Origin: Deltaproteobacteria bacterium RIFOXYA12_FULL_61_11
GTDB taxonomy: Bacteria > Bdellovibrionota_F > JAHFAK01 > YA12-FULL-61-11
Direction of reading: 5' to 3'
Length of the DNA: 5,458 bases
NCBI GenBank assembly: GCA_001799195.1
Contig: MGSU01000056.1
Location: 1 to 5,458, forward strand
Shown here piece after piece: positions 2,344-5,458 of this stretch; within the stretch, counting starts at the first letter, position 1; each line of letters opens with the position of its first letter. A model generated the notes under the pieces. That model did not search any database, was not told the origin of the DNA, and was given only the letters and a program-made list of their open reading frames with translations. A program made the position numbers and the translations under genes.

Positions 2344-2410
2344 GCGACATTGCCTGAAGAACGTATTCCATCAGTCTTAGGTGAGGTAAGGGGTCCTGTC
2401 GCCTCTCACC

Positions 2411-2462
2411 CCGACGCCGCGGCATCCTGCGCGTCGCTTGGAGGTCCGCATCCTTGCTGCCG
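2411..2462 (+). repeat. REP-like unit, copy 1
   Basis: The 34-nt head (2411-2444) is 33/34 identical to copy 2 and 31/34 to copy 3. The head can fold: GACGC (2413-2417) pairs with GCGTC (2431-2435), then a bulged CGCG, then GCA/TGC around a TCC loop. GGAG (2440-2443) is followed by a second hairpin, imperfect in this copy, with GCA (2448-2450) pairing TGC (2455-2457) around TCCT. A GGAG or GTAG tetranucleotide 5' of a palindrome is the reported layout of REP elements processed by RAYT transposases. Confidence 0.6.
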
Positions 2463-2496
2463 CCCCCACCATGCTCATGCTTGCACGTGGTGGGGG
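2463..2496. repeat. 9-bp inverted repeat next to REP copy 1
   Basis: CCCCCACCA (2463-2471) and TGGTGGGGG (2488-2496) are perfect inverse complements around a 16-nt loop, which itself contains TGC/GCA. The hairpin begins directly where the REP-like unit ends. No T-tract follows on either strand, so it is more likely part of the repeat cluster than a terminator. Confidence 0.5.
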
Positions 2497-2507
2497 TCCC
2501 CCGTCGG

Positions 2508-2525
2508 CGCCACCCCAACGTGGCG
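2508..2525. repeat. 6-bp inverted repeat
   Basis: CGCCAC (2508-2513) and GTGGCG (2520-2525) flank a 6-nt loop. It is the next hairpin after the one at 2463-2496, so three hairpin units follow each other within about 115 nt. Confidence 0.35.
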
Positions 2526-2553
2526 ACGAACAACCTGCAATCCACCCAAGACG

Positions 2554-2573
2554 GATCCCGGCTGATCCCGGCT
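2554..2573. repeat. Tandem 10-nt duplication
   Basis: GATCCCGGCT occurs twice in direct tandem (2554-2563 and 2564-2573) with no mismatch. It lies in the non-coding stretch between REP copy 1 and the transposase remnant. It may be replication slippage or a short direct repeat left by an insertion event. I see no gene between about 2344 and 2696. Confidence 0.5.
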
Positions 2574-2650
2574 CGGACTTCGAAGGATCGAATCGGTTTC
2601 GCGAACGCCGATAGAAGGTCGGGCCTGGAATCCCTATAAGTTCATGATAA

Positions 2651-2665
2651 TAGACGAATCGTCTA
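2651..2665. promoter_or_regulatory. Dyad symmetry upstream of the transposase remnant
   Basis: TAGACGA and TCGTCTA are perfect inverse complements around a single central A, giving a 15-nt near-palindrome. It lies 31 nt before the remnant ATG and directly after an AT-rich run containing TATAAG and GATAAT, which could serve as a -10 element. An odd-centred dyad overlapping a promoter suggests an operator or an end of the mobile unit. Neither is proven. Confidence 0.3.
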
Positions 2666-2696
2666 CCTGGCATCGATCCTGCTGTTTCCATCGCCC

Positions 2697-2897
2697 ATGA
2701 ACGCAAGGGTACCAAGGCATCTCCAGTTCTCGGACGGCGCACTGCTGCACATGTACTGGCAGTGTACCAACCACAACAAGCAGTACCTCCTCGAGAACGA
2801 CGACCTCAAAGAGCTCTACCTGGAGCTGGTGGCGAAGTACAAAAAGCAATACAATATCAAGCTTTTGGATTGCGCCCTCATGGGCAACCATTGCTAA
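2697..2897 (+). pseudogene. N-terminal fragment of a REP-associated tyrosine transposase (RAYT, Y1/HUH family)
   Basis: 66 residues from ATG 2697 to TAA 2895-2897. RAYTs cut and join single-stranded REP sequences, using an HxH metal motif and one catalytic tyrosine. The reading here fits the family N-terminus: a PRHLQF start, LHMYWQCTNHNKQYLL (about residues 17-32, like the usual H-x-Y-W-x-C/V-x-N-R pattern), a helix with ELYLELVAKYKKQYNI, then LLDCALMGNHC. Family members continue with a second His and a run of Leu/Ile (usually MPNHVHLL). Here the frame stops after NHC, while the +2 frame immediately reads LILLWEHL from 2894. A 4-nt loss at 2892-2894 that removed the second His would explain this; an insertion junction is the alternative. 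The catalytic Tyr region is absent, so the product is inactive. No Shine-Dalgarno precedes the ATG. Normal length would be well over twice this. Confidence 0.7.
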
Positions 2898-2942
2898 TTC
2901 TGCTCTGGGAGCATCTGGTTTCGACCTGCGGAGTGAGGTTGA

Positions 2943-2959
2943 CGGGATGATCGATCCCG
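2943..2959. repeat. 6-bp inverted repeat
   Basis: CGGGAT (2943-2948) and ATCCCG (2954-2959) flank a 5-nt loop. It is the first hairpin after the transposase N-terminal fragment and lies 8 nt before the 13-bp hairpin. Confidence 0.4.
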
Positions 2960-2967
2960 CCGGCCGA

Positions 2968-2999
2968 CCTTCTTTCTTGTTGGACGACAAGAAAGAAGG
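2968..2999. repeat. 13-bp perfect hairpin with pyrimidine/purine arms
   Basis: CCTTCTTTCTTGT (2968-2980) and ACAAGAAAGAAGG (2987-2999) are perfect inverse complements around the 6-nt loop TGGACG. It is the longest perfect stem in the window. One arm is almost purely pyrimidine and the other almost purely purine, which differs from the GC-rich surroundings. No T-tract follows, so it is not a classical terminator; a dispersed-repeat component is more likely. Confidence 0.7.
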
Positions 3000-3019
3000 C
3001 AAAGAAGCGTCCGCGTGGG

Positions 3020-3118
3020 CGCTCCGGGAGGACCAGCCCGGATCCCAGTGGCGCGCCAAGGTCGCGCCGCATACCGTTCGTGGTTCTTCGAAGCGGGCAC
3101 CCCAGGCCTCCCGGAGCG
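3020..3118. repeat. Long-range branched inverted repeat (12-bp closing stem)
   Basis: CGCTCCGGGAGG (3020-3031) pairs perfectly with CCTCCCGGAGCG (3107-3118). Inside, GCCCG (3036-3040) pairs with CGGGC (3094-3098), and GGCGCG (3050-3055) pairs with CGCGCC (3063-3068) around a 7-nt loop. A CTTCGAAG palindrome lies at 3085-3092. The roughly 99-nt unit can therefore fold as one branched structure. It could be a structured RNA, a compound REP (BIME-like) element or a small non-autonomous mobile element. I recognise no named RNA family. Confidence 0.55.
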
Positions 3119-3187
3119 AACACAGCTCTCTCTCTTTTGCCCGAACAGGGCGTCAGTCGACAGTCGATGTTGTTGGCGGACCGAAGC

Positions 3188-3202
3188 CGGGCTCGATGCC
3201 CG
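3188..3202. repeat. 5-bp inverted repeat before REP copy 2
   Basis: CGGGC (3188-3192) and GCCCG (3198-3202) flank the loop TCGAT. It ends 4 nt before REP copy 2. Alone it would be weak; it is noted because it belongs to the continuous run of hairpins. Confidence 0.25.
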
Positions 3203-3206
3203 AAGC

Positions 3207-3257
3207 CCGACGCCGCAGCATCCTGCGCGTCGCTTGGAGGGGAGCTTCCATGCTCCC
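3207..3257 (+). repeat. REP-like unit, copy 2
   Basis: The head at 3207-3240 differs from copy 1 by one base in 34. GGAG lies at 3236-3239. The second hairpin is strong here: GGGAGC (3240-3245) and GCTCCC (3252-3257) around TTCCAT. Both arms differ from those of copies 1 and 3, yet pairing and the TCC loop core are kept, which argues for selection on structure. This copy sits between the two transposase fragments. Confidence 0.62.
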
Positions 3258-3305
3258 ACGGTACCTGGCAAGAAACAATTCAGAACAATCGATGGATGCG
3301 GGCGA

Positions 3306-3320
3306 AACGCAGGAGGCGTT
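3306..3320. repeat. 5-bp inverted repeat
   Basis: AACGC (3306-3310) and GCGTT (3316-3320) flank AGGAG. It lies directly before the 10-bp hairpin at 3325-3355. Weak alone. Confidence 0.25.
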
Positions 3321-3324
3321 GAAT

Positions 3325-3355
3325 GTCGGCGATTGCATGAAGCCAAATCGCCGAC
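3325..3355. repeat. 10-bp perfect hairpin
   Basis: GTCGGCGATT (3325-3334) and AATCGCCGAC (3346-3355) are exact inverse complements around an 11-nt loop. No T-tract follows on either strand. It shares no obvious sequence with the REP-like units and may be a different repeat family. Confidence 0.55.
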
Positions 3356-3412
3356 GAAAGCGAGACACGAGACCAGCAAGGTTCGATCGACAGTTGTCTG
3401 CACACGTCTCGA

Positions 3413-3426
3413 GCCCTGATGAGGGC
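3413..3426. repeat. 5-bp hairpin with a 4-nt loop
   Basis: GCCCT (3413-3417) and AGGGC (3422-3426) close the tetraloop GATG. It lies 15 nt before the tandem hairpins at 3442-3491. Confidence 0.3.
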
Positions 3427-3441
3427 AGCAGCGACCTTTTG

Positions 3442-3471
3442 CCCACTTTTGGGGCGCAGGCCAAAAGTGGG
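3442..3471. repeat. 11-bp perfect hairpin
   Basis: CCCACTTTTGG (3442-3452) and CCAAAAGTGGG (3461-3471) are exact inverse complements around an 8-nt loop. It is immediately followed by another perfect hairpin (3473-3491). No T-tract follows, so termination is unlikely. It resembles the paired palindromes seen in compound REP arrays. Confidence 0.6.
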
Positions 3472-3472
3472 G

Positions 3473-3491
3473 CGCTGCCGGGAGGGCAGCG
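3473..3491. repeat. 7-bp perfect hairpin, tandem with the preceding one
   Basis: CGCTGCC (3473-3479) and GGCAGCG (3485-3491) flank the loop GGGAG. Only one base separates it from the 11-bp hairpin. The two probably form one unit. Confidence 0.5.
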
Positions 3492-3575
3492 AAACGGAGG
3501 TGCAGGAGGCACAAGTGAAGCTGCGGTCGGCCTTGACCCACTCTACCAGTACGACAACCTCGATCGCGTGTTAGG

Positions 3576-3713
3576 CACTACGCGGGGATCGAACGTGATG
3601 ATCGCATCGACACCTCGGAAGCCTGGTTGGGTCTGGGCGAGACCGATGCCGAGCGTTGTGCTGCCTATCGTGAGCTGGTAGAAGCCCATCGCCAAGAGCA
3701 GGGGAAACCCTCG
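3576..3713 (+). pseudogene. C-terminal-like fragment of the RAYT transposase
   Basis: The frame is open from 3537 (after TGA 3534-3536) to the stop at 3924-3926, with no credible start. The recognisable part runs HYAGIERDD (from 3576), then IDTSEAWLGLGETDAERC and AAYRELVEAHRQ (to about 3704). It resembles the C-terminal region of Y1/RAYT transposases, where a WSSxR-type segment is followed by TPHPLYLxLG, a few residues with R, then AYRxLF. It has the same orientation as the N-terminal fragment, about 0.65 kb downstream but in frame register unrelated to it. The two are most simply halves of one broken gene. The middle part carrying the catalytic Tyr was not found. Past residue Gly at about 3704 the frame runs through the hairpin at 3714-3734 and REP copy 3, so the natural stop appears lost. 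The match is made by eye and is less certain than that of the N-terminal part. Confidence 0.5.
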
Positions 3714-3741
3714 CGGGAGCATGACGAGCTCCCGTCCTTTT
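3714..3741 (+). terminator. Intrinsic-terminator-like hairpin after the transposase remnant
   Basis: CGGGAGC (3714-3720) and GCTCCCG (3728-3734) form a perfect 7-bp GC-rich stem with a 7-nt loop, followed by TCCTTTT (3735-3741). The T-run is short but correctly placed for plus-strand transcription coming from the transposase remnant. The stem shares GGGAGC/GCTCCC with the hairpin of REP copy 2, so it may have arisen from a repeat. Confidence 0.45.
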
Positions 3742-3849
3742 ACAGCGGCACCCCAGACTATTGCAGGACGCAGACTGAGCGACTCCTTCTGGCTTTCCGC
3801 GAGCACAACCGGGCTCTTGCCGCTGCCCGGGCTCTGAACCTCGCTATTT

Positions 3850-3900
3850 CCGACGCCGCTGCATCCTGCGCGTCTCCTGGAGGTCGGCATCCCTGCCGCC
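3850..3900 (+). repeat. REP-like unit, copy 3
   Basis: The head at 3850-3883 is 31/34 identical to copy 1. The head hairpin bases GACGC and GCGTC and the apical GCA-TCC-TGC are all unchanged. GGAG lies at 3879-3882. The second hairpin is CGGCA (3885-3889) and TGCCG (3894-3898) around TCCC, with an outer GG/CC clamp. It is in the same direction as copies 1 and 2 and lies downstream of the transposase C-terminal fragment. Confidence 0.6.
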
Positions 3901-3926
3901 ACCCCGACGCATCGAAAAAAGACTGA

Positions 3927-4241
3927 TCCCTCTTCCAGGTCAGCTCTTTGGTGATGCGCGAGGAAGGCCTTGGTGCGTCTGCTTTCTGGGTTAGCCCTGC
4001 TTTGCTTGCCGTCAAATCGACCCGATAGTACCCTTGTCCGCATGGAGAGGGTTGTGATGAGAGATGCGCGTGGAAACCGAGTCCGGCTTTGGAGTCCGGC
4101 TTCCTGGTTCCGACCCCGGGCGCCCAGTTGAAACCGAATGTGGTTTACAGGCTTAGAACCGCACCGACTGGCAGACGTTTCAACGTCAAGCTCAGGGTTC
4201 CGGACGACGAGAGCCTGGCTCGGATCCAAGTCCTGGCAGCC
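3927..4241. other. Intergenic stretch between the repeat cluster and the kinase gene, no gene seen
   Basis: About 315 nt with no credible coding frame on either strand. Small features: an 11-nt direct repeat GAGTCCGGCTT at 4079-4089 and 4092-4102 (period 13), and a 6-bp dyad GACGTT/AACGTC with a 2-nt centre at 4174-4187. The dyad lies 55 nt downstream of the kinase stop on the minus strand and has no T-tract, so no clear intrinsic terminator for the kinase is visible. Confidence 0.4.
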
Positions 4242-5458
4242 CTACGCGAGCAGCTTGTGAAGAACTCGCGCCAGGTCGCTCTTGCGAAACGGCTTGAGAA
4301 GCAACTCAGCGACCCCAGCGGCCCGAGCTTGGTCCGGGGTGATACCGTCAGCGTAGGCGGTCGTCAGAATTACCGGTAACCTCTTCGGACACACCCGCGC
4401 AGCCGCCGCCACTTCCAGACCGCCGACCTCGGGCATCCGTAAATCAGTCACTACCGCGTCATACTCGTCCGCGTGCAGGTCGAGTTCGGCGATTGCCTCC
4501 GACCCGCTGGTGAACCACCGGACGCGGTATCCCAGCGACTCGAGCAACTGACTGCTTGTATCACACACCCGCCGCTCGTCGTCTACGAACAGCACCCGCA
4601 GCCCATCGCCAGGCGCGTCCGGCTCGGGTTGCTCTGCTCGCTCTGGCTTCCCCTCGACGCGAGGCAGAAAGACCCGAAAGGTGCTGCCCTTGCCGATCCT
4701 GCTCTCGGCGAGGACCGTGCCACCGGAGCCGGTAACGATGCCGTGTACGAGCGCCAAACCCATGCCGTTCCCTTGGCCGACAGGCTTGGTAGTGAAGAAC
4801 GGCTCGAAGATGCGATCGAGAGTTCGCTGGTCCATGCCACAACCGGTATCCGTGACTTCAAGAACCCGGTAGGGACCTGCGGGGAAAGAGTCACCGACTC
4901 GCGGATCGCCGAGCTCGAGCACTTCGTCATGAAGCCGCACATCGAGTCGCCCACCGGACGCAGCCATGGCCTGGAGGGCGTTGGTGAGCAGATTGAGCAC
5001 CACCTGATGGACCTGCGTCGGGTTGGCCATGACCGTGAAGGGTCGGTCCGGCACGTCGAGGTGCAGCGCGATCGAGGGTTGGAGACTGCCCTGCACGAGC
5101 TTCGCCGTCTCTTTCACGAGCGACCCCAGATCCAAAGGATGTGGGTCGAGCTGGACCTGTCGGCTGAAGGTCAGCACCTGCCCAATGAGCTCCGCGGCGC
5201 GTTCGATCGCGGCAACGAGTTGCTCGACGTGGGGCGCCGCCGGACTCTTCTCGGGGAGCAAACCCTGCACGATGTCGGTGTAGGCAAACATGTAAGTGAG
5301 GATGTTGTTGAAGTCGTGCGCGATGCCGCCCGCCAGCGTTCCCACCGCCTCGAGTCGCTGCATCCTGGCGATACGCTCCTCGAGCAGCTGTTTCTCCCGC
5401 TCAACCCGACGCGCCTCGCTCCGATCGACAATGACCTCGAAGCCGCCGAGGATCTCTC
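4242..5458 (-). CDS. Hybrid sensor histidine kinase with C-terminal receiver domain, 5' end outside window
   Basis: 404 complete residues read from the window edge to TAG at 4244-4242; the real start is outside. It opens with GGFEVIVDRSEA, like the end of a PAS domain, then a charged linker helix (about residues 14-31). HisKA follows with LAGGIAHDFNNIL: phosphoacceptor H47, the HDFNN type. The HATPase domain shows an N-box (NLLTNALQ, N159), G1 (DTGCGMD, 203-209), an F-box (FEPFFTTK, 217-224) and G2 (GQGNGMGLAL, 227-236). A Pro/Glu-rich linker leads to a receiver domain with acidic pair D292-D293, phosphoacceptor D338 in VVTDLRMP, T366 and K388 in LKPF. All catalytic positions are intact, so autophosphorylation on H47 and transfer to D338 are expected. 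No output domain is attached; a separate Hpt protein or response regulator is probably needed. The input signal cannot be read here. It has no paired regulator within the window. Confidence 0.93.
   Translation of the reverse strand, partial: EILGGFEVIVDRSEARRVEREKQLLEERIARMQRLEAVGTLAGGIAHDFNNILTYMFAYTDIVQGLLPEKSPAAPHVEQLVAAIERAAELIGQVLTFSRQVQLDPHPLDLGSLVKETAKLVQGSLQPSIALHLDVPDRPFTVMANPTQVHQVVLNLLTNALQAMAASGGRLDVRLHDEVLELGDPRVGDSFPAGPYRVLEVTDTGCGMDQRTLDRIFEPFFTTKPVGQGNGMGLALVHGIVTGSGGTVLAESRIGKGSTFRVFLPRVEGKPERAEQPEPDAPGDGLRVLFVDDERRVCDTSSQLLESLGYRVRWFTSGSEAIAELDLHADEYDAVVTDLRMPEVGGLEVAAAARVCPKRLPVILTTAYADGITPDQARAAGVAELLLKPFRKSDLARVLHKLLA

Follow-up and report, generated by a model that had tools for sequence, protein, structure and literature searches.

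The DNA analysed here (the window, 5,458 nucleotides of a contig of Deltaproteobacteria bacterium RIFOXYA12_FULL_61_11) contains a dead copy of a multi-copy RAYT transposase gene and, in three copies, the presumed substrate of this transposase, a non-autonomous module of 54 bp, which in the reading that we regard as rather probable is moved by the intact RAYTs of the same genome, which would read its tag and loops. The three copies belong to one module family, each with a history of its own. The features on which this reading is built are, in order:

2363..2556, plus strand: MITE-like element with core TIRs ATCAGTCTTAGG (2370-2381) and CCCAAGACGGAT (2545-2556) and the left outer end GTATTCC
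2411..2464, plus strand: module 1, inserted at site 1 of the MITE (70.8 bits)
2565..2891, plus strand: 5' flank of RAYT with its N-terminal part (aa 1-65; the coding sequence begins at 2697), interrupted within the HxH motif
2892..3570, plus strand: foreign segment replacing about aa 66-147 of RAYT (paralogue alignment), with matches at contigs C325, C338, C332, C196 and C316
3207..3260, plus strand: module 2, whose hairpin B differs (GGGAGC-TTCCAT-GCTCCC; 70.8 bits; alignment A2)
3571..3848, plus strand: C-terminal part of RAYT (HYAGIERDD...ARALNLAIS), with about 69-73% amino acid identity to intact paralogues
3850..3903, plus strand: module 3, an in-frame 18-codon insertion of 54 bp just before the RAYT stop (77.3 bits)
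3904..4092, plus strand: native 3' end of RAYT, reading DASKKD up to the stop codon at 3924-3926, followed by a conserved 3' flank, with 85-92% DNA identity to the paralogues L061, L062 and L064

On both sides (1-2272 and 4242-5456) the window holds ordinary minus-strand genes, i.e. those of an acyltransferase (PF01553), a two-CBS protein (PF00571) and a hybrid histidine kinase with a receiver domain; the protein encoded at 1-702 has no Pfam match.

The module is a 54-bp pair of hairpins present in many copies

The first-pass annotation had described three same-direction repeats, each consisting of a 34-nt head and one palindrome. Three plus-strand copies at 2411, 3207 and 3850 indeed constitute the top repeat family and strongest direct repeat in a repeat search of the window; the unit itself had to be redrawn, since the 34-nt head makes up only the left portion of a double hairpin of 54 bp. 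When the window is scanned with a full covariance model, built from 24 distinct modules, these copies score 70.8-77.3 bits (E values of 1e-15 to 3e-17) and the next match reaches 10 bits. The same model finds 87 copies in the host assembly (4.64 Mb in 342 contigs, about 87% complete), and copy 1 with its flanks as a DNA query gives about 50 matches, which disposes of the concern that the repeat might occur nowhere else in the genome. For a 14-mer from the head, 30 exact occurrences were counted, as against none for its reversed control.

Beyond this genome, the model search revealed no module in 58 other genomes (only one of them in the same class), so that gain and loss of the module cannot be polarised from outside the host, and an Rfam search gave no match. 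The pattern of hairpin B has 42 scattered matches in a wider collection of genome contigs, which we treated as chance matches, because the best scores 25 bits with the model and none comprises a full module.

A unit length of 54 bp follows from insertion lengths that are exact and from tandem arrays with a period of 54 (at C287, C268 and C194); this periodicity also means that the 54 bp contain no extra target duplication. Across the host genome modules have always inserted as exactly 54 letters, also into other mobile elements and into the gene of the transposase itself. One module can even lie inside hairpin A of another (L029 on C269, L234 on C116 and L216 on C304), and at L226:1479-1534 (C188) a module stands in frame within a 263-aa ORF that resembles a real secreted protein, LamG-like by eye.

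Within the module, hairpin A, a G[GT]AG tag (mostly GGAG, in some copies GTAG) and hairpin B follow each other in this order, i.e. the tag is located 5' of hairpin B. The loop of hairpin A is close to GCATCCTGC, then comes TGGAGG (or GGTAGG), and the loop of hairpin B is close to ATCCCT. The stems differ strongly between module types, with variants such as CGACG/CGTCG, GGTGC/GCACC and GGGCC/GGCCC in hairpin A and CCGC/GCGG, CGGC/GCCG and GTGC/GCAC in hairpin B; tag and loops vary little, and loop conservation is somewhat overstated, since modules were partly collected with patterns containing tag and loop, which leaves the covariation of the stems unaffected. When the modules are aligned by sequence only, 97.9% of the cells in the two stems are paired, and double changes affect seven of the eight stem pairs. 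Altogether 45 cells show such double changes, as against 13.1 in shuffles (0 of 500 shuffles were as high), and the covariation score is 0.648, as against 0.02-0.10 in slid controls. These values were computed on alignment A2, with the GTAG-type modules left out, which are misaligned in the MAFFT alignment A1.

A REP is a tagged palindrome with many dispersed copies, and a G[GT]AG tag, covarying stems and the copy number of 87 all place the module in this category. A REPIN or BIME is made of two inverted REPs, each with a tag, and the module is built differently: no CTCC or CTAC counterpart was found at its other end, with the single tag being internal and the hairpin order fixed.

A decayed RAYT gene and its intact paralogues

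The two coding fragments between and around the modules had been taken for parts of one Y1 transposase gene, and alignment with paralogues bears this out. At the DNA level, 2565-2891 is 86-90% identical to L061, L062 and L064, which are the closest of the intact paralogues. The N-terminal protein fragment (2697-2891) shares 92-97% identity with four intact paralogues (L061-L064), and these align with most of 2565-2891, 3571-3854 and 3904-4092 in the window. With the Pfam profile of the Y1 transposase domain (PF01797), which had been proposed as a check, the N-terminal fragment alone stays below the cut-off of 23 bits (14.8 bits), whereas the intact paralogues exceed it with 39-40 bits. In the host genome, 12 loci exceed the search threshold of this profile, and the relatives of the window RAYT, complete and partial ones together, number about 42.

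Among the paralogues, NHxH and Tyr126 are invariant (alignment A4). In the window copy the N-terminal fragment ends inside the HxH motif (MGNH, then C, then a stop) and about 82 residues (roughly aa 66-147) are replaced, with loss of the second His of HxH and of the catalytic Tyr (Tyr126 in A4). Because the replaced part includes these two residues, the window gene is a RAYT/TnpA_REP pseudogene, i.e. a catalytically dead copy.

The predicted fold of an intact RAYT protein (pLDDT 89.7) has its best PDB match in 4er8, the solved structure of a RAYT bound to a REP hairpin (TM (target) 0.70, E 1.5e-6), followed by the IS608 and ISDra2 transposases. With Y---NR in the Y motif and NHQH at HxH, the paralogue group of the window departs from Y---NP, the class 2 signature (PMC6006769), and NP is present in the more distant L066 and L068. 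The NCBIfam equivalog model REP_Tyr_transpos gives 29-31 bits, below its cut-off of 80. Judged by its motifs (NHQH, Y---NR) and by the roughly 30 bits to this REP-transposase model, the RAYT of the host is a divergent member of its kind; a search for a named relative in the wider genome-contig collection confirmed none.

The RAYT proteins of L061, L062 and L064 contain a stretch of about 24 aa (LPSFCRAVVEQFVQAVSDSREHDD), which is absent from L063 and the window copy and looks like an internal partial duplication around 'DDLPSF'. In L301 (C192:1-2200), a short N-terminal RAYT piece (644-702) lies between modules in the region of about 451-764, beside a RAYT 3' flank. The modules found at codon ~11 of RAYT remnants, both here and at C289, suggest module-mediated deletions.

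Modules in the RAYT 3' end and in the segment that replaced its core

Of the units that had been placed in and around the RAYT gene, only module 3 is inserted in RAYT itself, as 18 codons in frame, and it is present in some paralogues only. Its site is uninterrupted in L061, L062 and L064, so that three of the four closest intact RAYTs have no module at the 3' end; 54 bases are added there in the window and 108 in L063. The two tandem modules of L063 are of different type. As 54 bp correspond to 18 codons, the reading frame of L063 continues up to the native SDALKKD end, and that of the window fragment up to DASKKD. In a second RAYT subgroup, at C199, an in-frame module occupies the place of module 3.

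Module 2 has another context. It sits in the unrelated repeat at 2892-3570, which is built partly from pieces of another dispersed repeat and which replaced the core of the gene. The first-pass annotation had proposed that decay included the gain of a further REP-bearing segment inside the gene; the segment with module 2 took the place of the gene's middle. Module 2 appears to have come in with this dispersed repeat segment or to have been already present in it. A related segment at C338 (C338:23513) carries a 54-bp module at another point (GGACCA/GCCCGG), and there the sequence corresponding to 3030-3040 of the window is uninterrupted.

A MITE-like carrier with empty and filled sites

Module 1 belongs to a separate, highly repeated TIR element just upstream of the RAYT gene (2363-2556). 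When about 30 related elements are aligned at their ends, the family TIR is GTAWNNNTTCAGTCTTGGG, which has 159 matches in the genome with at most one mismatch. Copies terminate in TTCAGTCTTGGG and its inverse, with the outer ends GTAW and WTAC, and in at least seven other copies these ends are bordered by 8-bp duplications, e.g. CATGAGGA (L009), CGGGAAGG (L015) and TACAGGTT (L019); the window copy has lost its right outer end and the target duplication. Starts of GTAA or GTAT and target duplications of 8 bp are features of the IS66 family. Having GTAA-type TIRs and such duplications in these other copies, the carrier elements are best described as IS66-like MITEs. No IS66 transposase with the ends of the MITE was found in the assembly (about 87% complete); the only strong one in the genome, L297 (C91:48544-49422), has ends that differ from those of the MITE family. 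We also considered common TIRs for RAYT and MITE (both share AAGACTGA) and rejected this, because the RAYT has no inverted upstream copy and because the MITE has outer ends of its own, which together with its 8-bp duplications are indicative of a DDE transposase.

Empty and filled sites can be compared directly in 47 element copies. The distance at site 1 is 4 (11 copies) or 57/58 (27 copies), with one copy at 111 that has a nested module; at site 2 it is 10 (31 copies) or 64 (12 copies), and at site 3 about 31 (40 copies) or about 85 (two copies). Empty and filled states thus differ by 53-54 bp at all three sites, with no intermediate lengths, and TIR-to-TIR sizes are 133-136, 187-190 or about 238-243, with whole elements centred on about 134, 188 and 242. 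Such two-state spacings mean that one fixed length was inserted at three unrelated positions. Since all four combinations of occupancy of sites 1 and 2 exist, recombination or precise loss is needed as well. Many filled copies probably descend from one insertion per site, with the events being far fewer than the copies.

How the module may move

Eighteen of the 37 modules outside MITEs, or 13 of 24 by cluster, directly adjoin RAYT-derived DNA, which is a very small part of the genome; the module therefore also has the second hallmark of REPs, i.e. copies next to a RAYT gene. With this association, a decayed RAYT, intact paralogues and a GGAG/GTAG tag 5' of a hairpin, it is fair to speak of a REPtron, as the first-pass annotation had done, except that the data do not support all three units as flanking substrates of this one gene. 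A lack of target duplication is what is expected for IS200/IS605-like single-strand transposition. RAYT association, tag and absence of target duplication fit RAYT-type transposition by this route, although association is not proof of mobilisation; cleavage of REPs in vitro has been described (PMC8266576).

We favour a scenario in which the module is most likely moved, by what would be a single-strand route, by the intact RAYT paralogues, which would recognise tag and loops rather than the sequence of the stems. Each insertion adds exactly 54 bp and leaves no visible target duplication. As 54 bp are 18 codons, stop-free in the frame used, the RAYT frame stays open after insertion at the 3' end; modules residing in IS66-like MITEs also spread secondarily when the MITEs transpose, and the window RAYT died when the unrelated repeat segment replaced the part coding for its active site. 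In a stricter version, the transposase would be blind to the stems, which could then drift freely as long as tag and loops are readable, and 54-bp, 18-codon modules would enter both IS66-like MITEs, i.e. a second layer of mobility, and the RAYT C-terminus with the frame intact; this complete chain we put forward tentatively, as possible but rather doubtful.

Alternatively, modules might not be mobilised by RAYT at all, their spread being due solely to the MITEs and RAYT elements that carry them as passengers and to recombination or gene conversion between repeats. About 50 of the 87 modules lie in MITEs with their own TIRs and target duplications, all combinations of occupancy of sites 1 and 2 exist, and at C34 a hybrid of MITE and RAYT has its junction within modules. 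Passenger spread, however, cannot make new exact insertions in unrelated DNA, and the 54-bp unit occurs alone in contexts as different as the RAYT 3' end, the C338 repeat, the C188 coding sequence and hairpin A of another module, which makes this alternative unlikely. Even less probable is that the empty sites are the derived ones, with modules being ancestral to MITE and RAYT ends and lost by precise excision. The mixed occupancy of sites 1 and 2 and the resemblance of RAYT 3' ends to the left end of the module (TTCCGACGCYGC) would agree with this, but three MITE sites, two RAYT subgroups and other modules are too scattered to be all ancestral, and tandem and nested copies require gain. The three window copies might also be transcriptional or RNA hairpins (terminators, attenuators) kept for their function rather than mobile DNA, and compensatory stem changes, as expected of a functional RNA or single-stranded DNA hairpin, would agree with this. 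It is very improbable, since the copies have no Rfam match, occur inside pseudogenes, other repeats and each other, and show no consistent gene context.

Comparison with known systems

Mobilisation by the intact RAYTs, the reading preferred here, bears on a field in which most inferences on how REPs spread still come from copy number and from cleavage in vitro. In the host genome, many exact empty and filled sites in repeated carriers make insert length, target and lack of target duplication directly readable. Moreover, a natural series of compensated stem changes shows which parts of the hairpins matter and can be compared with the behaviour in vitro of RAYTs that depend on the loop, recognition of this kind having been measured for group 3 RAYTs (PMC8266576).

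The closest relatives are REPtrons, i.e. REPs with their RAYT/TnpA_REP (subclasses 2.2, 2.4 and 2.5; Quentin et al. 2018, PMC6006769), which likewise combine an HUH/Tyr single-strand transposase gene with adjoining tagged hairpins, have a GTAG-type tag 5' of the hairpin and occur in many genome copies; subclass 2.4 has in-frame REP insertions within the tnpA_REP gene itself. In contrast to these, the module described here is an exact 54-bp hairpin pair with fixed order and one internal tag, its loops and tag are kept while the stems vary freely, the RAYT is multi-copy with NHQH and Y---NR, and the in-frame insertion is located at the extreme C terminus rather than between HuH and Y. TIRYTs, which form TIRtrons (Di Nocera et al. 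2013, PMC3733652), share a RAYT-like gene with a C-terminal extension and a GGGGTCAG-like motif (fitting GGGGWSAS) at the 3' end of the gene, as seen in L063 and L135. A TIRYT has inverted GGGGWSAS repeats on both sides of the gene, however, whereas the motif-like end is found here only 3', with no inverted upstream copy, and typical tagged hairpins are present.

REP units inside another palindromic repeat family are also known from A. variabilis GTAG-15 and H. neapolitanus CGTC-1 (PMC3733652), but here many empty target copies and three sites allow the insert length to be measured directly, and the repeats that receive the modules have TIRs and target duplications of 8 bp. The palindromic elements of Rickettsia are short repeats as well and lie in frame within protein genes (PMC3733652), as does module 3; they have no known dedicated transposase, whereas the gene that hosts the module here is the presumed transposase. 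With IS66-derived MITEs the carriers have GTAA/GTAT starts and 8-bp target duplications in common, yet they carry RAYT-type modules, and the ends of the one strong IS66 transposase found (C91) do not match theirs. Overall, in-frame REPs in tnpA_REP genes, REPs in palindromic carriers and loop-dependent recognition by RAYTs were already known; what is new here is a unit of exactly 54 bp that combines two hairpins and a single internal tag, together with empty MITE sites at which the insert can be measured and the degree to which the stems have changed with compensation.
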